Below, piece after piece: positions 14,921-26,424 of a stretch of 64,000 bases of DNA; the stretch's first letter is position 1; the number at the start of each line of letters is the position of its first letter. The position numbers and the translations under genes are program-made. The stretch is from NCBI GenBank assembly GCA_003712055.1, contig RHLJ01000006.1:62001-126000 (forward strand), in the 5' to 3' direction. The notes beneath the pieces were generated by a model that worked only from the letters and a program-made list of their open reading frames with translations, did not search any database and was not told the origin of the DNA. Source of the DNA: Balneola sp. (lineage in GTDB: Bacteria > Bacteroidota > Rhodothermia > Balneolales > Balneolaceae).

Positions 14921-16873
14921 GTGAAAAGTTTCTGGATCGTTTTAATAGGATTCTTTCTTTTTACTTCTTCAGCAAAAGCACAGCCGAAGGATTATGGAGA
15001 TATAAGTGCTGAGGATTTCTTAGCATATGACTCCACCTATAATGAATCGGCTTCGGCGGTAATATTATTCGAAAAAGGGGTAGTAGAATTTGATTCTGAC
15101 TACAATTGCATCCTTCAGCTTCATAGACGAATTAAAATATTAACTGATCAAGGAGCTGATTATGGAGATATTGAGATTCCTGCTTATAAACCTGCCCGGC
15201 AAAATGTGTCAAGCATAAAGGCGGTTACCTATATACTCAATGAAGATGGAGAAATTGAGGAAAAAAAGATAAATGAAGAGGATATTTTCACATCGGTAGA
15301 AGGTCATGTTATAGAAGTAAAGAAATTCACCATGCCCGATTTGCAACCAGGGGTAATAATTGAATACTATTATCGGAAAAAGATGGGGAATGCATTCATG
15401 ATGCCTGATTGGGAATTCCATGGGTACATTCCTATAGAATGGAGTGAAATAGAAATGATCGTTCCATCTACATTGAATTACAGAATGGTTTTTAAGGGAG
15501 GGGATACCCTACATATTAATGAAGCAGAAAGGATTAATAACCTGGTAAATAATATGCCTGCCCAGAGTATCAGGCTGGCAAAGAAAGACCTTAAGCCCAT
15601 CGAGTCATTACCTTTTTTATTGAACAGAGATGATCATGTTTCTTCCGTAATAACTCAGCTAACCGGAATGAGTATCCCAGGTTATTATCCAAGAAATTTT
15701 CCGCGGAGTTGGGACGAAATAATTAAACAACTAAATGAGAGGGAAGATTTCGGTAAACAGAAGGCTAACCGCGCTATAAAAGGGCTTGTTAATTCTATTA
15801 TAACTGATGGAATGAATGACTTAGAAAAAGTAGAAGCTGTTTACAGTTATATGGTAAACAATTTTGAATGGGACGGTTATCATTACTTGGTTACAGAAAA
15901 AGGAATTAGAGATACTTTCGATGACAAAATGGGGAATAGCGCAGATTTAAATTTACTTCTTACCATCATGTTAAGGGAAGCGGGTATCGGCACTAATCCG
16001 GCCTTAATTAGTACTCGAGATAATGGAAGTGTTTTAGGTGATTACCCCTCATTGAATCAATTCAATATGTTAGTTGTTGCTGTTGAATCAGAGGAGGGGG
16101 TGTTTATGCTTGATGCTTCATCAGGATTAAGGTCTTATACCTTTCCTCACCCAAAACTTCTATTTCGAAATGCATTAGTAATCAGGAAGGATAACACCTT
16201 TGGTTGGCTGCTTACCCATTCCCTGGAAAATTCATCAGAGAGATTAAGTATGAATTATTCCCTGAAGGATTCTTCAAAAATTGCAGTTTCAATTTCAGCG
16301 AGGACAAAAGGGGCTTTTTCTGAACAATTGAGGAGCGATGTAGATCGGTTAGATTTTAACTCATATTGGGAGGACTACTACAGTGATCTGGAAGATGTTA
16401 CTGTAGACTCATCTTCCTTCACTAACCTTCAGAATCTAGGAGAAAGCGTAACGTATAAAACGTCTTTTTCTATGGAGAAAGAAGAGAGGCTTAAGCTAGG
16501 TAATGAATTTATCTACCTGAACCCTTTTCTTTTTTTAAGTGAACCAGAAAACCCGTTTATCAAAACGGAGCGGAATCTGCCTATCGAATTTCCATTTCCC
16601 TATGGTAAGCAACACCTGGTTAGAGTAACTCTGCCTGATGGGTATATAGTGGATGAAATACCTGAATCAGTAGAAGTGAATCTGCCAGATCAGGGAGGGT
16701 ATTACCGTTTTCAAACCAACCTAACAGGAGATGTTTTAACTCTGGTATCTATCACCAGTATTAATACCTACTACTATGCACCTGATCAGTATCAGGAGAT
16801 AAAAGAGCTATTCGAAGCCAAGTACAAAGCAACTAATTCTCAGGTGGTTCTAAAAAAAGAAAGCTCTGAATAA
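14921..16873 (+). CDS. DUF3857/transglutaminase-like secreted protein, catalytic residues lost
   Basis: A 650-residue protein with a signal peptide ([18 protein letters not shown]), an N-terminal DUF3857 domain and a transglutaminase-like core at about residues 290-410. A DUF3858-like beta-rich C-terminus follows. Aligned by eye with the paralogue at 28558, the catalytic Cys position is Ser340 (GNSADLN) and the catalytic His position is Met383 (FNMLVV), while an Asp (D398) remains. It is therefore probably a non-enzymatic periplasmic or surface domain. The start is GTG with a weak CAGGAT upstream; no ATG gives a full signal peptide. Paralogues at 24442, 26580 and 28558. Confidence 0.82.
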
Positions 16874-17650: not shown

Positions 17651-18823
17651 ATGAAGTCCTTACTAACAGTATTCCTACTACTTTGTCTTTCCACTTTTTC
17701 TTATGGGCAACTTGGCTTAACTGCATTTCCATTCACTATTCACAACTCGAATGTTAGGAGCTTATCTCTGGGAAATGCTACGGTTTCTCTTCAAGGTATA
17801 GATGGAGATTACCATGTAAATCCGGCTGGAATTGGGGTAAGTAATATTGTTCAGGTAAAAGGCATGTATGAACGCTTTGGGAGAGGTGAGCACTCAATTG
17901 GATTAATGGGAATTAGCTATGAGGTAGGGAGATCATCATTCGGCTTGTCTTTTAGAAAATTAACGCAGGGCGGGCAGATCTTGCTAGAAGATAGACTCAG
18001 AAGAATAGGTAGACTTGCAGGAGAAGAACATTATATATCGGGAGTATATAATTATAGGCTTTCTCAAGGATTGAGATTAGGAGTAGGAATGAATTATATG
18101 AATGCCAATGGGTCTTTTTCACAAGCCATTGCTACTCGATTAGATAAAGTTGAAGGATTTAGTTTTGATATAGGAGCGGTTTACGAGAATTCTTTTAAAC
18201 TAAATAATAGACACATTTTAAGAACAAGCTTTGGATTCTCTTTGACAGATTTCGGAGCAGGGTTAGAATATCATACGAACAGAAGTACCGATCCTTTGCC
18301 AACTATATTAAAAATTGGAACAGGGCTGGCTTACGAAAGCAATAGAGAATGGAAAGGTTTTAACCTCTTTGATGTCAGTTTAATGACAAATGTATCCAAA
18401 TTATTATCAAGGAAAGAATTGAGGATATCAGGTTCGGATACTTCCTTTGTCGCACTCCCTCCATTCAGGCAATTAATAGAATCATGGGAAGCGTATGAGT
18501 TTTTTAATGGGCAGCAAAATGTATCAGTCGGTTTAAAAGACCAACTTTGGTACCATGTAGGTATTGAGGTCACATTTTTAAGCGCCCTTTCACTGAGATT
18601 TGGCTTTGAAAATGCTGCTGAAATAGAAGAAGATTTTTCTTACCGCTCTTTTGGTTTAGGTATAGACTTGTACTATATCAATTTCGATTATGCTTATTTA
18701 CATGTCATTGAGGAAGGTGCTTTCAACCGAGGGTATTATAGGCATGGTAACCATTGGTCAATTAGGGGTAGAATACCTCTTAATGGAAAGTCGGAAAGGA
18801 CTCTTTTAGAATTAATATTCTGA
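17651..18823 (+). CDS. PorV/PorQ-like outer-membrane barrel protein
   Basis: A 390-residue protein with a signal peptide (LLTVFLLLCLSTFSYGQ). Right after it comes NVRSLSLGNATVSLQG..DYHVNPAGIG, the hallmark of the PorV/PorQ branch of FadL-like barrels. The remainder is amphipathic beta-strands with SxSLRFGFEN near the C-terminus. PorV and PorQ are T9SS components that shuttle or attach cargo proteins at the outer membrane, but many Bacteroidetes and Balneolota paralogues have no assigned role. The gene is convergent with the DUF1800/DUF1501/WG operon. Alternative: a generic outer-membrane protein. Subtype is uncertain. Confidence 0.65.
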   Translation: MKSLLTVFLLLCLSTFSYGQLGLTAFPFTIHNSNVRSLSLGNATVSLQGIDGDYHVNPAGIGVSNIVQVKGMYERFGRGEHSIGLMGISYEVGRSSFGLSFRKLTQGGQILLEDRLRRIGRLAGEEHYISGVYNYRLSQGLRLGVGMNYMNANGSFSQAIATRLDKVEGFSFDIGAVYENSFKLNNRHILRTSFGFSLTDFGAGLEYHTNRSTDPLPTILKIGTGLAYESNREWKGFNLFDVSLMTNVSKLLSRKELRISGSDTSFVALPPFRQLIESWEAYEFFNGQQNVSVGLKDQLWYHVGIEVTFLSALSLRFGFENAAEIEEDFSYRSFGLGIDLYYINFDYAYLHVIEEGAFNRGYYRHGNHWSIRGRIPLNGKSERTLLELIF

Positions 18824-18831
18824 GATAAACA

Positions 18832-18855
18832 AAAGAGGCGCCGAAGCGCCTCTTT
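18832..18855. terminator. bidirectional terminator between convergent genes
   Basis: Perfect 10-bp stem AAAGAGGCGC / GCGCCTCTTT around the tetraloop CGAA, flanked by A and T runs on both sides. It can end transcription of the PorV/Q-like gene and of the minus-strand WG-lipoprotein operon. Confidence 0.9.
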
Positions 18856-18896: not shown

Positions 18897-19955
18897 TTAA
18901 TTAGTGGGAAACCACACATAATCTCCAGATTTGTTGATGTAGCCATACTGTTCGGTTACTTCTTCATCTACCGTAACATAAATTACTACCCTGGCCAGGC
19001 CATTATAAAAAGCATCAACCTCATCGAATTTGGCTTCAGTGATTTTATTTCCTGAAAGATCTATAAAAGTCCATTTTCCGTTTTCAAGAATAGGAGCTCT
19101 TTCCTCAGTAAAAGGGCGAACTTCTTCGAATTGTTCAGTAATGGCAAAATTCCCGGATCTATCAATAAACCCAAATTGATTGCTATTTCTTCTGGCCGGA
19201 GCTAACCCATTCCCAAACCTGCCTGCACTAATGTATTGAGGTGAAATGACCACACTACCACCAGCATCAATAAAGCCCCAACGATCGCTGACCCTTACAG
19301 CTGCCAAGTTATCCGAAAATGGGAGGGCTTCTGAATACTTGAGATCAACTACGGTACTACCGCTTCGGTCTATATAGCCAAATAGTTCATCATCTCGAAC
19401 CAAAGCTCTTCCATTAGAAAATTCATTCTCATCAATATTATCTAAATCTTCAGGCATATTTACTGATTCAATTTTATCACCATCTTCATTGATATATAAA
19501 TATTCGGAGTAATCGAGACTTCTCACAAAGGCGCGTCCATCAGAGAAAGGATTGGATTCCCTGAAACGAGGATTAATAATGAAGTTTCCTTTTTTGTTGA
19601 TATACCCCCATCTGCCATTAACTCGAACAGCAGCTTTACCGTCGTAAAAAGGCTGGATATCCTGGAAATCTCCTTCAATAATGAAATCTCCATTTTTGTC
19701 CATGTATTTCCAACCCCAGCTTTCCCTCACAACAGCAAGACCATCGGAAAAGGGGTATGCATTTTGTAAGGTAGGCTCAATAACCATTGCTCCCTGATTA
19801 TTGATATATCCCCATTCCCCATCCACAAGAACCGGATAAAGTTTTACTACAACATCATCATTGTTATCGCCGCCACCGGTAATATTATCTACTATATCAC
19901 ATGAAGAGGCAAAAACAAGAAATAGGGCGCTTAAGTATATAAGTGAACGTTTCAT
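18897..19955 (-). CDS. WG-repeat lipoprotein, second copy
   Basis: A 352-residue lipoprotein (signal SLIYLSALFLVFASSC, lipidated Cys). After a Gly/Asp linker it consists of WG (KWG-type) repeats of about 45 residues, e.g. GEWGYINNQGAMVIEP, GRWGYINKKGNFIINP and DRWGFIDAGGSVVISP. The pattern alternates W/F-G-Y/F-I-D/N with F-S-x-G-L-A-x-V-R. It ends KSGDYVWFPTN, nearly identical in form to its neighbour's KSGEYVWYPTR, so the two are tandem duplicates. The start at 19955 is chosen because it gives the lipoprotein signal; earlier in-frame starts run into the upstream gene. Last gene of a four-gene operon, 10 bases after its neighbour. Function of WG repeats is unknown; binding or scaffolding is assumed. 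Confidence 0.85.
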   Translation of the reverse strand: MKRSLIYLSALFLVFASSCDIVDNITGGGDNNDDVVVKLYPVLVDGEWGYINNQGAMVIEPTLQNAYPFSDGLAVVRESWGWKYMDKNGDFIIEGDFQDIQPFYDGKAAVRVNGRWGYINKKGNFIINPRFRESNPFSDGRAFVRSLDYSEYLYINEDGDKIESVNMPEDLDNIDENEFSNGRALVRDDELFGYIDRSGSTVVDLKYSEALPFSDNLAAVRVSDRWGFIDAGGSVVISPQYISAGRFGNGLAPARRNSNQFGFIDRSGNFAITEQFEEVRPFTEERAPILENGKWTFIDLSGNKITEAKFDEVDAFYNGLARVVIYVTVDEEVTEQYGYINKSGDYVWFPTN

Positions 19956-19965
19956 AATTCTGTAT

Positions 19966-21003
19966 TTATCGAGTTGGGTACCAAACATATTCTCCTGATT
20001 TATCCACGTATCCATAGCGTGGGTTATCTTCACCAAATCGCACTCTCGCGATTCCATTAGTGAAGCTTTCTGCCTCATAAAAAGGCTCATTTATTGTTAT
20101 TAAACCGGAACTCCGGTTGATGTAGAACCAATCGCCACTAAGACGTACGGCACTCATGTTTTCGGAGAATGATTTTACCTCAGCAAATTGGAAAGGAATT
20201 ACAAGCTCTCCCTCATTATCAATAAAACCTATATAGTCTTCTTCCATAACCCAGGCCAGGCCTTGCGAGAATATTCCTGCCTGGGTATAAGTTGGAGTAA
20301 TTACCGGATTACCTGATTTATCAATATATCCCCATCCCTCGGTGGTTTGAACAGGGGCAAGTCCGTCAGAAAATTCCCCAGCCGAAGCTATCTGGAAATC
20401 TGGGTTTATAATTTCATTTCCGGATTTATCGATATATACCCATCCTTCAAAAGTTTCTACCGCAGCAACGTCTTCTGAAAAAACCTGGGCATCGCTAAAT
20501 CTAAGCTCAATGGCCGTTGAGCCATCGCTAGAAACATATCCCCATAAACCATCGGCACGAACAGCAGCTAAGCCCTCAGAAAAAGGCCCGGCAAAATCAA
20601 AGGAAGGAGAGATGGCGAAATCTCCGCTGGAATTGATAAACCCATAAGCTTGTCCGGGAAGTTGTGCAGGAGCTAGTTCTCCTGAAAAATTACCGGCGAC
20701 ACTAAATGATACCGGGATTGCAAGTTTTTTTGTCTCTTCGGATACATATCCCCATTGGGTTCCTTGACGAACAGCCGCAAAACCATCCGAGAACTCTCGG
20801 GCTTCATCATAATTGGGTTCAATAACAATATTGCCAGAGTTATTGATGTATCCCCATTGTCCGTTTAAAAGAATAGGGTGGAGGGTTTCTACTGTTTCAT
20901 TATCGTCTCCTCCCCCTATGCTGTCTACCACAGTACAATTTGAGAGAACAAATAAACTTATTAGAGAAAAAATAAGGGCGAGTGTTTGTAGCTTTTTTGA
21001 CAT
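19966..21003 (-). CDS. WG-repeat lipoprotein, first copy
   Basis: A 345-residue protein with lipoprotein signal (LALIFSLISLFVLSNC) followed by GGGDDNE-type linker and about eight WG repeats. Examples are GQWGYINNSGNIVIEP, DGLWGYVSSDGSTAIEL and EGWGYIDKSGNPVITP. It shares linker, repeat pattern and C-terminal KSGEYVW with the adjacent gene. It begins six bases after the stop of the DUF1501 gene, so it belongs to the same transcript. The protein should be anchored to the outer membrane, facing periplasm or outside. Role unknown; association with the DUF1501/DUF1800 pair is inferred from gene order only. Confidence 0.86.
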   Translation of the reverse strand: MSKKLQTLALIFSLISLFVLSNCTVVDSIGGGDDNETVETLHPILLNGQWGYINNSGNIVIEPNYDEAREFSDGFAAVRQGTQWGYVSEETKKLAIPVSFSVAGNFSGELAPAQLPGQAYGFINSSGDFAISPSFDFAGPFSEGLAAVRADGLWGYVSSDGSTAIELRFSDAQVFSEDVAAVETFEGWVYIDKSGNEIINPDFQIASAGEFSDGLAPVQTTEGWGYIDKSGNPVITPTYTQAGIFSQGLAWVMEEDYIGFIDNEGELVIPFQFAEVKSFSENMSAVRLSGDWFYINRSSGLITINEPFYEAESFTNGIARVRFGEDNPRYGYVDKSGEYVWYPTR

Positions 21004-21009
21004 GATTAG

Positions 21010-22650
21010 CTATTTAATGAGGGTCATTTTTTTGCTTTGGCTACCTGATGGAGTTTCAATACGGTACAGATAAACCCCACTGGTGAGAGCGCTGGCATCA
21101 AAACTGAGTGTGTGTTCTCCTGCAGGTAGTGTTCGATGAACCAGGGTTTGGACCAAGCTCCCCCTGGCATCGAACACTTTTAATGTGACCGGCTCCGATT
21201 TGGCCAGCACAAACGATATGTTAGTAGTTGGGTTAAATGGATTAGGATAATTCTGATGGAGGGTAAAGTTCCTGGCTTTACTTCCCGGCTCCGTATTGAC
21301 GGGCAGCTCATTCACAAATCCAAGATCCTGGAATTCGCCTTGTAATACGGTTTCTGTATCATCCACATCCAATCCAAACCACTTATTGAGGATAGTGGTA
21401 TATATAGAGCGGTAGTCGATACTAAATACCGGATCGCCGGAATTATCCAAATCGGTGAGATTAGCATGATCTCCATACAAACCACCGTTTACTGGTCCAA
21501 AAAGCATTACAGGTGCAGAAGAACCGTGATCGGTACCTTGAGATGAGTTTTCATCCAGTGTTCTTCCGAATTCAGAGAACGTCATAGTTAAAGCTCGATC
21601 CTGAAGTTCGTCGGCTGCCAGGTCTTCATAAAAGGCATTCACAGAATTAGCGATATCAGCTAATAAGCCTGCATGCCCACCTTCGGTTCCTCCCTGATTA
21701 TTATGAGTATCGAAACCTCCTTTAGAGACAAGGAATACTTTGGTTTGCAGACCACCTCGAATCAAACGGGCAACAACCGAGAGACTATTTGCTAATCCTG
21801 AATTAGGATATTCAACAAGGTTAGTTGAAGCATCGGCAGCAGATTGGATAGCTTCAAGATACCGGAAGGACGAGTTTGCAATCTTTCGCGCGAAGGAAAG
21901 AGATCGGCCGAATTCGTTTTCAGGAACATTTTCTTCGCTATAAAACCCTCCTTGTTCCAGGAATTGAGCAAATTGACTTGCGCCTCCAAAAGTTACTCCT
22001 AGGTTCCCGAATTCGCTCTGGAATAATGTAGCGGATCCTCCAATTCGTACTCCTAAAGGATACTCAGGAGGGCTTAGGATAAAGCTTGGATTATCTTCCA
22101 CCAGAAAACGTCCGGCCCAACCAGTACCAAGATTCTGATCTTCATCACTGGCTGAGGTCCATATATCCGTAGAGCGGGCATGAGAACGATTCGGGTTTTG
22201 ATAGCCTACATTATGGATTACAGACATATTTCCATTATCCCAAACTGGTTGTAGCGCTGCCATAGCAGGATGCATCCCAATGTCGTCACTTAGAAGAATC
22301 GACTGTTCTTTAGTAATAGCTATGGTTGGGCGTTTTTGAAAATAGACATCATTTTCTACAGGAATGATGGTATTTAAACCATCATTACCTCCACCTAGCT
22401 GGATAAGTATTAATACCCGATCGTTGTTGGCAGCTACCAGGCGGTTTAGGAATTTAGTCCTCGCCATGGCATTAACAGATAATCCACCAAGCATAAAACC
22501 AGAACCTAAAGCCCCAATTCCAAGGGTGCTTAAGAAACTTCTTCTGGTCCATGACTGGTGGTCTTGTTCATGGGCCTGCCCATGCTCAAGACTGCTTCCA
22601 TGACGATTAGAGATAGTTTTCTTGTTAGAATGATTGTGATGATTACACAT
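21010..22650 (-). CDS. DUF1501 protein with Tat signal and T9SS sorting domain
   Basis: A 546-residue protein. The N-terminus is His-rich (seven His in the first 31 residues). A twin-arginine motif TRRSFLS at residues 35-41 and a hydrophobic GIGALGSGFMLGGLSVNAMA follow. The DUF1501 domain (alkaline-phosphatase-like fold) shows LIQLGGGNDGLNTIIP, NVGYQNPNRSHARS, SKGGFDTHNNQGG and TFSEFGRTLDENSSQGTDHG. The last 85 residues are a T9SS type-A sorting domain (FTLHQNYPNPFNPTTNISF ... SQSKKMTLIK). Export therefore appears to be Tat across the inner membrane, then T9SS across the outer. DUF1501 and DUF1800 genes are habitual neighbours. Spacing to the DUF1800 gene is 12 bases. Activity is unknown. Confidence 0.88.
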   Translation of the reverse strand: MCNHHNHSNKKTISNRHGSSLEHGQAHEQDHQSWTRRSFLSTLGIGALGSGFMLGGLSVNAMARTKFLNRLVAANNDRVLILIQLGGGNDGLNTIIPVENDVYFQKRPTIAITKEQSILLSDDIGMHPAMAALQPVWDNGNMSVIHNVGYQNPNRSHARSTDIWTSASDEDQNLGTGWAGRFLVEDNPSFILSPPEYPLGVRIGGSATLFQSEFGNLGVTFGGASQFAQFLEQGGFYSEENVPENEFGRSLSFARKIANSSFRYLEAIQSAADASTNLVEYPNSGLANSLSVVARLIRGGLQTKVFLVSKGGFDTHNNQGGTEGGHAGLLADIANSVNAFYEDLAADELQDRALTMTFSEFGRTLDENSSQGTDHGSSAPVMLFGPVNGGLYGDHANLTDLDNSGDPVFSIDYRSIYTTILNKWFGLDVDDTETVLQGEFQDLGFVNELPVNTEPGSKARNFTLHQNYPNPFNPTTNISFVLAKSEPVTLKVFDARGSLVQTLVHRTLPAGEHTLSFDASALTSGVYLYRIETPSGSQSKKMTLIK

Positions 22651-22662
22651 AATTAGTCTCCC

Positions 22663-24243
22663 TTAAATAAGCTGGTATGCTGGTAATTGAATGAGATATG
22701 AGATGTACAGCCGTAGATTTTCGGCAAATGTATCTTCATAGAAGAGATTATCATCGGCATCAGAATTAGCCGTCCATTCATACCAGGGAATATCTCCCAG
22801 CAGAATTTTAGAGAGGTTTATTTTGTAATCAGGAAACCCGGATACATCAGGTGCCAAATCAGGGTTCCCTGCAAAATCTTCTTCCACTTCCCGTATTCCA
22901 ACCTGATCTAGTGGGAGCGAAAGCAGGTGTTCTGCAATATCTTCCGCAACACTAAAAGGGTTGGATGGGTCCGAGACTTTTTCAGCGATTCGAATGGGAT
23001 CGTAAAGGTCTCCACCACCATCATATCCATAAACCAGGTCAGTAAGATTATCCCATCTTGAGGGCATCAGATTAGTATTAAGCCAGGTGTAATGCCCAGG
23101 GGTACCATCTGAATCAGGCGGATTATATCCGGACCAACCAAAAACAGTTTCGGGGCGGAGCAGCTCTTCATTAAGCTCCTGCATCCTGACTCTTATATAC
23201 TCTTTAATTTCAGAAGTAGGAGCTATTTCGAGTTGCCGAAGAAAGCTGATGAATATTTCAATAGGGCTCTTAATCCTTGAACCCATAAACCTTTCATCGT
23301 AAAAATGAGTGCTGCTAAGAAGGTTTTTGAGAACATCTGCAATGTTGAAGTCTACACTTAAACAATAATCAGCAAGTTCCTGAATAGCATCATTATCAGG
23401 TTCAGCACTAACAAAAAAGACGTATAGTTTTCTGCTTATGAACCAGGCCACTTCTGCTGGCTTTTGATCAAAAATCAGATCAATAACTCCATCTAAATCG
23501 AAAGAGTCGGTCTGTTCAAGTATGCTCTTCGACCCGGTATCATAACGGCTATCATCAAAATATCCTGATAGGGTGGCATCGTTCACTCTCCAGCCGGTAA
23601 CAGCTCTGGCTACTTCGGCTACATCGTTTTCAGAATAATTATCATTCTCGTCTTTGTCTTTTGGCCCAAGAGTAAATAGCTCCAGTAATTCTCGCGCAAA
23701 ATCCTCATTAGGTTGACCTGCACTATTGTTGTAGTTATTCAGGTAATAGACCATTGCAGAGTTTTTACTCACAAGACGAACAAGTTCCTTGTAATCGCCA
23801 AAGCCGTGTGTTTGTAGCAACTTCATGTATTTGTACATATGGCTACTGTAGCTGTTGGGAGCTTTACCAGGCAGGTCGTTCATATTTTGGTAAGACACAG
23901 CAAAATGATTACTCCAAAAAAGCATCATTCGCTCCATGAGCCCACCATTATACATGCGATCCATCCAGCGAAACTGAATATCATATATATCCAAAATATC
24001 CCCTGAGTTTCCTGAGTTATACCAGGAAGGATCATCCGGAAGGATAGCGGAAGCGGCTTCATCAACAATAGTATCAACCGCAGCTGATGCCGAGCCAAGC
24101 GCTCGAAGCCGGTTTAAATCACTTATTTTGTTACCAAAATGAGTTCGTCTTGTTAGATGGGCGGCCTGTGCTTTTCCCCAGGTTCCATTATAAGTCTCCA
24201 GACTTGATGAATTAGCTCTGATTGAGAGAGAAGGAGAATTCAT
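22663..24243 (-). CDS. DUF1800-family protein
   Basis: A 526-residue protein with DUF1800 hallmarks: HLTRRTHFG near the N-terminus, MERMMLFWSNHFAVSYQNM, NEDFARELLELFTLG, ENDVAEVARAVTGW and, in the C-terminal half, SPIEIFISFLRQLE, VFGWSGYNPPDSDGTPGHYTW. Function is not known for the family. Its gene typically sits beside a DUF1501 gene, as here. No signal peptide or T9SS tail is evident, so location is unclear (cytoplasmic, or exported in complex with the Tat substrate next door, which is speculation). It heads the operon and is divergent from the DUF3857 cluster across a 198-base region. Confidence 0.88.
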   Translation of the reverse strand: MNSPSLSIRANSSSLETYNGTWGKAQAAHLTRRTHFGNKISDLNRLRALGSASAAVDTIVDEAASAILPDDPSWYNSGNSGDILDIYDIQFRWMDRMYNGGLMERMMLFWSNHFAVSYQNMNDLPGKAPNSYSSHMYKYMKLLQTHGFGDYKELVRLVSKNSAMVYYLNNYNNSAGQPNEDFARELLELFTLGPKDKDENDNYSENDVAEVARAVTGWRVNDATLSGYFDDSRYDTGSKSILEQTDSFDLDGVIDLIFDQKPAEVAWFISRKLYVFFVSAEPDNDAIQELADYCLSVDFNIADVLKNLLSSTHFYDERFMGSRIKSPIEIFISFLRQLEIAPTSEIKEYIRVRMQELNEELLRPETVFGWSGYNPPDSDGTPGHYTWLNTNLMPSRWDNLTDLVYGYDGGGDLYDPIRIAEKVSDPSNPFSVAEDIAEHLLSLPLDQVGIREVEEDFAGNPDLAPDVSGFPDYKINLSKILLGDIPWYEWTANSDADDNLFYEDTFAENLRLYISYLIQLPAYQLI

Positions 24244-24441: not shown

Positions 24442-26424
24442 ATGAAATCAAAAAAGCTACTAACTATAATAGCCTTGTTACTGATATCTGGAGAGGTACA
24501 TTCACAGGTTCGCGAATTCGGTGATATTTCCCGTGAAAATCTGGAGATGCTAATTTTTGATAAGGATTCAGCTGCAGATGCGGTGGTACTTTTTGCGTTA
24601 GGAGAATCTAATATTGTGTTTAGGAGGGGCGAGTTTACTCTCAAGGTTAGCATACATGAGCGGATTAAAGTGCTTACCGATGAAGGAGAGAACTTTGGAA
24701 ATATCTCAATCCTGTTTTGGAATAATTGGTCAGATTTTCCTCAAGAGATAAAAAATTTGAGAACAGCGAGTTATACACTAGATGAGACCGGGGCAGTTAT
24801 TACGAGAGAGATTCCAAGAGAGGCTTACTTTGAGGAAAGAATATCAAATCATATTTCAGAGCTATCGGTCTCAATTTCAGATCTAAAAAAGGGAGACATA
24901 TTTGAATATTCCTATGAAATTTATTCTGATACCCCCTGGGATATTTTGGATTGGTTCTTTCAGGATTCTATTCCGGTGAAGTGGAGTGAATATCGAATTC
25001 GAGTTCCGGATTGGCTTACACTATCTACGATTAAAAAAGGATTTCAGGAATATCATATTAATACAAAAGAATCTTATTCAGAATATGTGTCATTTGAAAA
25101 CCTGGAAATGCTTCAAGTGCAGGGTAGCGATTACAGATTTGTAATGAAAGATCTCGAAGCTTTTGAAGAGGAACCTTTTATGAAGATAGCAAATGACTAT
25201 TTACCTCAAATAAGGTATCAACCTGTTTCAATAGAGTTTTCGGAGAGATTCTATCAGAATTTCACAAGTTCATGGGAAGAATTTATAAACGAAATGTTAG
25301 GTGATGAGGATTTTGGTAAAAGATTGAATGGCAAATGGGTTAGAAAAGAAATACCGGGTATTGTTGATGACTCAGATTCTGATCTCGAAAAGATGATTAA
25401 AGTCTATAACCATATTTCAAATATGATAGATTGGAATGAAGAGTATAGCCTTTGGTCAGATAGGAAACCAGAAGATGTGTACGAAGAGGGGACCGGGAAT
25501 GGGACAGCGATAAATCTAATATTGGTTGATTTTCTAAGGGCTGTCGGATTAGAAGCCCATCCTGTTTTATTAAGTACACGTTTTAACGGAGAGGTAATCC
25601 ACCAATTTCCGGGCTTTGATCAATTTAACCACACTATAGCTTATGCAGAAGTTGATGGAGAATCCTATCTACTGGATGCAAGAGATCAAAATTTGCCCTA
25701 TAACTTACTGCCTCTGGATGTGATTGGTGGAAAGGCATTGCTACTTCATCCATTAGAAGAACGTTGGATTACACTAGACAATAGAATCGTTTCGAGTGAG
25801 GATGTTAAAATTGATGTACAAGTCTCAGAAAGTAGCGTACGGGGTAATCTTAGGCTATCAAATAAAGGGTATTTCGCTTATATCCGGAGAAACCAGCTTG
25901 ACTATAGAGATCTTACAAAAAGTGTAGAGGATGAAATATTCAAGACACCGGGCAACTACCTGATTGATTCGGTAAGGATAACGAAAGATAAACTGGATGG
26001 GGCGTTTGACCTTGATATTGATTTTCGCCTTGATAAGAATGTGGATGCTGATGTGCTTTATATCAATCCAATGATTATTGGTGGGTGGGATAATCCATTT
26101 AAGAAAAATGACAGATCTTTTCCTGTGGATTACAACTTTCCATTTTCGAAAAACCTTATCTATACATTTACAATCCCGGATGGATGGGGTATTGATACAC
26201 TACCTCAATCGGTTGCGCACACATTACCAGATAACGCAGGAGAATACCGTAGATTAATACAAGTGAATGGAAATACTATAATAGTGAACAATACCTTTTA
26301 CATTAAAAAGTATCGCTTTGTGCCAGAAGAATATGACGAACTAAAAGAAATGTACGATTACATGACTGCAGCACTTGATGAAGGTATTGTTCTGAAGAAA
26401 CAAGAAAGGGAGTTACGAGAATAA
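24442..26424 (+). CDS. DUF3857/transglutaminase-like secreted protein, catalytic Cys replaced by Gly
   Basis: A 660-residue protein with signal peptide (LLTIIALLLISGEVHSQ), DUF3857 domain, transglutaminase-like core and a beta-rich C-terminal domain. In the core the Cys position is Gly354 (GNGTAIN), while His397 (FNHTIA) and Asp412 (LLDARD) of the triad are kept. Loss of the nucleophile predicts no transglutaminase or protease activity of the usual kind. It is a close tandem paralogue of the next gene, with near-identical stretches such as VYEEGTGNG and YINPMIIGGWDNPFKK. No Shine-Dalgarno is evident at the ATG. Role unknown. Confidence 0.84.
   Translation: MKSKKLLTIIALLLISGEVHSQVREFGDISRENLEMLIFDKDSAADAVVLFALGESNIVFRRGEFTLKVSIHERIKVLTDEGENFGNISILFWNNWSDFPQEIKNLRTASYTLDETGAVITREIPREAYFEERISNHISELSVSISDLKKGDIFEYSYEIYSDTPWDILDWFFQDSIPVKWSEYRIRVPDWLTLSTIKKGFQEYHINTKESYSEYVSFENLEMLQVQGSDYRFVMKDLEAFEEEPFMKIANDYLPQIRYQPVSIEFSERFYQNFTSSWEEFINEMLGDEDFGKRLNGKWVRKEIPGIVDDSDSDLEKMIKVYNHISNMIDWNEEYSLWSDRKPEDVYEEGTGNGTAINLILVDFLRAVGLEAHPVLLSTRFNGEVIHQFPGFDQFNHTIAYAEVDGESYLLDARDQNLPYNLLPLDVIGGKALLLHPLEERWITLDNRIVSSEDVKIDVQVSESSVRGNLRLSNKGYFAYIRRNQLDYRDLTKSVEDEIFKTPGNYLIDSVRITKDKLDGAFDLDIDFRLDKNVDADVLYINPMIIGGWDNPFKKNDRSFPVDYNFPFSKNLIYTFTIPDGWGIDTLPQSVAHTLPDNAGEYRRLIQVNGNTIIVNNTFYIKKYRFVPEEYDELKEMYDYMTAALDEGIVLKKQERELRE

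Follow-up and report, generated by a model that had tools for sequence, protein, structure and literature searches.

A conserved DUF1800-DUF1501 operon with a tandem pair of WG-repeat lipoproteins in Balneola and related families

The genes of the DUF1800 and DUF1501 families (COG5267 and COG4102, respectively) are known to accompany bacterial chitin synthases, in operons (PMC5122149). WD40 propeller genes neighbour DUF1501 in Planctomycetes (PMC5587647), and DUF1501 has also been linked to the compartmentalised bacteria of the PVC (Planctomycetes, Verrucomicrobia, Chlamydiae) group (PMC4452313, PMC4960237). The two families occur together in many phyla, and in our search of the literature on DUF1501 and DUF1800 no established function for either was found. 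Here, we analyse the locus at positions 18897-24243, minus strand, of a 64-kb stretch of DNA from Balneola sp. (the window; the assembly has 3.63 Mb), in which a DUF1800 gene and a DUF1501 gene are followed by two tandem genes for WG-repeat lipoproteins, called WG1 and WG2 below. As in the chitin synthase operons, the first two genes stand in one operon and the DUF1501 protein carries a motif of twin-arginine translocation (Tat), but no WG lipoproteins are reported there, and the unit here is conserved without a chitin synthase (PMC5122149). The nearest precedent is the Planctomycete one, where a beta-propeller gene likewise adjoins DUF1501, but there it is a neighbourhood tendency that involves another propeller family, whereas here a fixed tandem pair of WG lipoproteins lies in one operon (PMC5587647). 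The WG pair is a new addition to the known DUF1800-DUF1501 pair, and its conservation, described in the following, is stronger than the sequence alone could tell.

In a first survey of 117 relatives, 20 genomes besides that of the window have the WG pair, in all of them directly 3' of DUF1501. A class-wide search of 245 genomes adds 19 genomes with tandem WG pairs, from further families, where the WG genes immediately follow DUF1501, or whatever part of it remains on the contig, with DUF1800 before DUF1501 wherever the contig extends. Altogether, the tandem full-length WG pair is present in 40 genomes of 11 families in one class, every pair being directly downstream of DUF1501, and the order DUF1800-DUF1501-WG1-WG2 on one strand is kept wherever the contig reaches. 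Note that very near relatives may be left out of the collection and that the counts of named Balneolaceae are low. Because the arrangement recurs in 40 genomes and the 3.63-Mb genome of the window has only two PF14903 genes, WG1 and WG2 themselves, the arrangement is not due to chance. The proposal of the initial annotation that the four genes form a real unit is borne out by this common order and strand, and an occurrence of the WG genes beside DUF1501/DUF1800 in this strain only is excluded. That the four genes constitute one functional unit we regard as nearly certain.

The features of the operon are as follows, in window coordinates.
22663-24243, minus strand: DUF1800 protein, 526 aa (PF08811, E 1.4e-78)
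21010-22650, minus strand: DUF1501 protein, 546 aa (PF07394, E 4.8e-22), with Por_Secre_tail at residues 468-542
19966-21003, minus strand: WG1 lipoprotein, 345 aa (PF14903, E 2e-71), with nine WG repeats
18897-19955, minus strand: WG2 lipoprotein, 352 aa (PF14903, E 8e-72), with nine WG repeats
18832-18855, minus strand: terminator-like hairpin that closes the operon, a 10-pair stem AAAGAGGCGC-TTCG-GCGCCTCTTT and then a short T-rich tail

The closely spaced layout given in the initial annotation, with four minus-strand genes separated by gaps of 12, 6 and 10 bases, agrees with the gene models and family matches. For WG2 the longest open reading frame opens at 20090, inside WG1; the true start, as shown by the homology and the signal peptide, is at 19955, leading to the 10-base gap to WG1. 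The four genes are likely to form one transcription unit, which ends at the hairpin directly 3' of WG2. Since the promoter-like sites in the operon region are at the level of the shuffled sequences (20 versus 19.7), a single promoter is left without support.

Across the mapped loci the spacing is mostly short, and in several genomes DUF1501 and WG1 overlap by 4 bases. The flanking genes, by contrast, vary between genera and families, and within the mapped flanks no additional gene accompanies the module. These data bear on the explanation that the genes share regulation only, i.e., that they are co-transcribed because one condition calls for all of them, but are linked neither physically nor by a reaction. 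It speaks for this explanation that a physical link among the module proteins is something we infer only; but the order is strict across 11 families despite the changed flanks, DUF1501 and WG1 overlap in the several genomes just mentioned, and the WG pair is absent from the other DUF1501 loci of the same genomes. For these reasons bare co-regulation is unlikely, and we give it the smallest probability of the explanations considered here.

The reading of the four genes as a functional unit is also consistent with the association of the WG pair with one type of DUF1501. All class-wide DUF1501 matches with E below 1e-190 come from module genomes, where either the WG pair is present or the contig breaks; in one genome (G163) DUF1501 and WG are on different contigs and the WG contig starts with the tail of a DUF1501. 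In the DUF1501 tree, the WG-linked proteins make up two neighbouring well-supported groups among the Rhodothermia-type sequences, and in one locus (L118) whose DUF1501 falls inside the WG-linked clade the contig ends after DUF1501. The genome of the window itself contains a second DUF1800-DUF1501 pair (contig C7:52541-55154, L097), with a T9SS (type IX secretion system) tail and without WG genes, which provides a natural internal control for the module. The lineage-locked WG pair gives handles that the bare DUF1800-DUF1501 pair does not have, namely co-purification partners, a location, and a comparison of pairs with and without WG in one genome.

Some further arrangements were seen around such loci. 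At seven loci (L200, L201, L202, L204, L207, L211 and L212) the module has a second DUF1800-DUF1501 pair, or the DUF1800 of such a pair, as its neighbour, and in Aquimarina (L164, L171) two to three DUF1800-DUF1501 pairs stand in a row. One module (L094, genome G088) is broken, with DUF1501 split and a stop in WG1, owing to either decay or an assembly error. In some Balneolaceae (L112, L113; G043) a DUF1501 of another, canonical kind (E about 1e-161 or 1e-74) has an upstream partner of 916-972 aa, in a Planctomycete-like arrangement. In other Balneolaceae (L114, L115, L116) there is just one WG gene, a more distant one; its neighbourhood is conserved and contains neither DUF1501 nor DUF1800.

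Outside the class the picture is as follows. At 80 named DUF1501 loci of GTDB species, DUF1800 precedes DUF1501 in nearly all, consistent with the statement in the initial annotation that the two are frequent neighbours, and WG genes are present in only one of the 80, a Balneolaceae record (L117). Among the 394 genomes sampled across the phylum, none outside the class has a tandem WG pair at E <= 1e-50, and neither a DUF1501 domain nor DUF1800 is near any of 20 single WG loci from outside the class. The DUF1501 matches near WG loci outside the class were rejected, as they are only pieces of 83-111 residues, which we read as the shared T9SS tail. In viral contigs no WG1 relative was found. As far as sampled, therefore, the module is confined to one class: of the survey that had been suggested as a check, for WG genes beside DUF1501/DUF1800 in Balneolota and Bacteroidetes, the result is a conserved co-occurrence inside the class and none seen beyond it.

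The DUF1501 protein has a layout consisting of a Tat signal (residues about 34-61), a predicted domain of the alkaline-phosphatase superfamily (about 72-451) and a T9SS type A sorting domain (468-542). The AlphaFold2 model, obtained with 69 sequences, has a pLDDT (predicted local distance difference test score) of 82 overall, with most of residues 80-450 being above 80. The top Foldseek matches of the model are sulfatases, LtaS, YejM and alkaline phosphatase, and the VIA-align Z scores are 19.2 for snake venom phosphodiesterase, 18.8 for NPP3, 18.1 for PafA and 17.5 for choline sulfatase. One DUF1501 relative matches the Pfam Sulfatase model weakly (E 0.007), and the sequence search of solved structures gave no useful match for DUF1501, WG or DUF1800, the weak DUF1800 and WG matches being judged as chance. 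Based on the model, the protein very probably has the alkaline-phosphatase-superfamily fold. Residues D90, S156, H157, D314, H316, E360, D374 and H375 are invariant in the 69 sequences and are located in the model at loop positions beside the core strands, as expected for the fold. By order and secondary structure, D90, D314/H316, E360 and D374/H375 are candidate metal ligands, and S156, at the start of a helix, is a candidate for the nucleophile position. The likeness to the superfamily, which includes the nucleotide pyrophosphatases/phosphodiesterases (NPPs), the sulfatases and PafA, thus lies in the predicted core fold and in the order of the candidate ligands, and we consider it fairly probable that the DUF1501 protein is an active hydrolase.

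For the export, the DUF1501 protein shows the Tat features TRRSFL and then an uncharged run to VNAMA, with RK instead of RR in a few orthologues, and TatC is present in the genome. The tail scores 42.5 bits against a cut-off of 23 in the TIGR04183/PF18962 test, and the T9SS parts SprA and PorU are also present in the genome. Because 58 of the 69 relatives share the T9SS type A tail according to the family models, the combination of Tat and T9SS is, as read from the sequences, a trait of the DUF1501 family and not a feature of the strain. A His-rich stretch, MCNHHNH...AHEQDHQSW, lies before the twin arginines (window 22650-22540, minus strand) and is kept in the DUF1501 orthologues; it is possibly a metal-binding or DUF1800 recognition site.

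The DUF1800 protein, by contrast with the other three, has no export signal. An in-frame TAA 9 bases before the ATG excludes a longer form, and the stretch before the domain is not hydrophobic in 17 of the 17 module orthologues tested, from Balneolales loci. The median hydrophobicity of the best window is 0.26 for DUF1800, versus 1.8 for DUF1501 and about 2.7-2.9 for WG; the measure is the hydrophobicity before the domain start, the length of the uncharged run being confounded, in GC-rich genomes, by wrongly set start codons. The DUF1501-paired DUF1800 proteins of Azospirillum, Rhodobacter and Vibrio likewise lack a signal, whereas Tat signals are present in the two DUF1501 partners that were read from these organisms; a Thermus plasmid DUF1800, interrupted by a transposase, was left unused. 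These data favour the DUF1800 protein being either a cytosolic partner or co-exported via Tat with DUF1501, and do not support it as an independently exported surface component. Hence the idea put forward at first, that all four proteins assemble into one surface complex, is not borne out. The situation resembles that of the Tat hitchhiker and chaperone pairs, such as the hydrogenase large subunits and DmsD/TorD, in that a signal-less protein is encoded beside a Tat substrate, although we know of no sequence relation of DUF1800 to those proteins.

Some side observations on DUF1800 are also noted. In a Vibrio maritimus plasmid (NZ_CP090440.1, L241) tatA is located about 450 bases upstream of DUF1800, on the other strand from DUF1800-DUF1501, which hints that the pair is connected with Tat. 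Some DUF1800 N-termini in Chitinophagaceae and others (L170, L176, L182, L183, L189, L192) have RRxFL but no hydrophobic stretch and are possibly relic Tat signals, and one DUF1800 of Chlorobiota (L153) has a Tat-like signal.

WG1 and WG2 are paralogues with 40% identity, each having nine repeats with a spacing of 34-42 residues; in WG1 the repeats start at residues 50, 84, 120, 154, 188, 224, 258, 292 and 330. The model of WG1 (pLDDT 84, from only four sequences) is a propeller, for which the best VIA-align match is eIF2A (Z 17.6 over 307 residues), the range for eIF2A/eIF3b being Z 15-17.6 over about 310 residues. The lower matches include the designed propellers Cake9 and Cake10, others, and BamB (Z about 10.9). 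As the propellers of eIF2A and eIF3b are nine-bladed, WG1 is predicted to be a nine-bladed beta-propeller. The earlier statement that no function is known for any of the parts is thus narrowed by the models, to a hydrolase-type fold for DUF1501 and a nine-repeat propeller for WG1. In a tree of 80 WG proteins, all WG1 separate from all WG2 with a support of 99 and none of the 80 misplaced, and WG1 always precedes WG2. The tree indicates that the split is one ancient duplication, before the families diverged; that both copies have been kept since then argues that WG1 and WG2 do different jobs. A long-branch single WG gene (L217) without DUF1501/DUF1800 neighbours was not counted as a module.

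The maintenance of two divergent copies together also suggests two different ligands, and it can be supposed that the propellers only capture the substrate, i.e., that they bind a surface polymer without touching DUF1501, like the glycan-binding lipoproteins in polysaccharide utilisation loci. Propellers are common ligand-binding scaffolds, and the predicted DUF1501 fold is that of sulfatases acting on polysaccharides. However, the flanks differ between genera and families, with no conserved transporter or glycoside hydrolase adjoining, and we consider this explanation improbable, though less so than bare co-regulation.

Lipoboxes are present in both WG proteins of the window (VLSNC and FASSC) and, by a simple pattern, in 71 of the 80 WG proteins. 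Past the lipidated Cys, the WG orthologues have an acidic patch within a few residues (the background sample being small, n=11), and in most of them Asp is at position +2. In E. coli, Asp at +2 means retention in the inner membrane, while in Bacteroidota acidic patches can mark surface lipoproteins, and thus the two features can be read as either inner-membrane retention or surface export. The surface exposure that had been assigned to the WG lipoproteins is therefore not established. In one alternative, WG1 and WG2 would stay in the inner membrane, or else on the side of the outer membrane that faces the periplasm, and would shepherd the Tat-exported, folded DUF1501 to the T9SS translocon in a BamB-like manner, without being part of the final surface enzyme. 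Besides the Asp at +2, this periplasmic hand-off draws on the Tat signal and the T9SS tail on one cargo, which pose a special routing problem, and on the predicted WG1 fold, with BamB at Foldseek ranks 2, 3 and 6 and the Z score given above. BamB, of the beta-barrel assembly machinery (BAM) complex, is a lipid-anchored beta-propeller with a related predicted fold, but it is eight-bladed and unrelated in repeat sequence, whereas the WG proteins have nine repeats and come in pairs. Moreover, most DUF1501 relatives also have Tat and T9SS but are without WG, the WG1 of the window has Thr at +2, and it is not established that the +2 rule applies to this phylum. The hand-off is thus rather doubtful, to about the same degree as the capture of the substrate.

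For the whole, the best explanation is a cell-envelope unit round an exported hydrolase, for which we see an even chance. In the cell-envelope unit, DUF1501 would fold in the cytoplasm, binding its metal and perhaps DUF1800 there; it would then cross the inner membrane by Tat, with DUF1800, the constant helper of the hydrolase, either travelling with it or staying in the cytoplasm as its dedicated chaperone; and it would finally cross the outer membrane by T9SS. The lipid-tethered WG1 and WG2 would attach to the enzyme or to its substrate and keep the activity at the envelope; a direct contact of WG with DUF1501 is about evenly balanced against its absence. The substrate would probably be an ester of phosphate or sulfate on a polymer of the envelope or the environment, this being the weakest step. 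Such a module could throw light on the handling of folded Tat cargo that carries a T9SS tail, a topic hardly discussed in the literature that we found.

Several points weigh against the cell-envelope unit. The nearest solved relatives of DUF1501 are remote, with about 10% identity, and after the fourth core strand DUF1501 has SEFG where the NPPs have the DHG ligand pair usual in the superfamily, which suggests a changed metal site; given both, whether DUF1501 is active or has a one-metal site is uncertain. The Asp at +2 in most WG orthologues could place the propellers at the inner membrane. Many DUF1501 homologues stand without WG in other loci, which means that DUF1501 does not in general need WG to function, and WG repeats occur in many unrelated contexts. 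Lastly, the contacts among the four proteins go beyond the computed gene unit and folds. The initial annotation is thus partly supported, its module reading of the operon being right while the surface complex is unproven. A stronger form of the cell-envelope unit is a self-contained two-membrane one, where DUF1800 would ride Tat on the folded DUF1501 and the propellers would take over the complex, either handing it on to T9SS or keeping it at the outer membrane. If true, the operon would encode a dedicated relay from Tat to T9SS with two propellers as its receptors, but we consider it unlikely, ranking it somewhat below the hand-off and only a little above bare co-regulation.

The neighbouring genes were judged to be outside the module. 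Convergent to the operon is the following gene.
17651-18823, plus strand: PorV/PorQ-family outer-membrane protein

This gene passes the family model NF033709 (PorV/PorQ family; 117 bits, cut-off 90) but fails the equivalog models of PorV (77.8 versus 250) and PorQ (36.2 versus 220). Thus the PorV/PorQ-like identity that had been given to it stands at the level of the family and not of PorV or PorQ proper. As a fifth member the gene was rejected, since it is absent from most orthologous loci and so is not conserved with the operon. The DUF3857 and DinB neighbours were also rejected as members, for only close relatives share them and other families do not have them; they are treated as local synteny. 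The DUF3857/transglutaminase-type paralogues lie on both sides of the operon (window 14921-16873 and 24442-26424), and similar genes are located beside it in related Balneolaceae.

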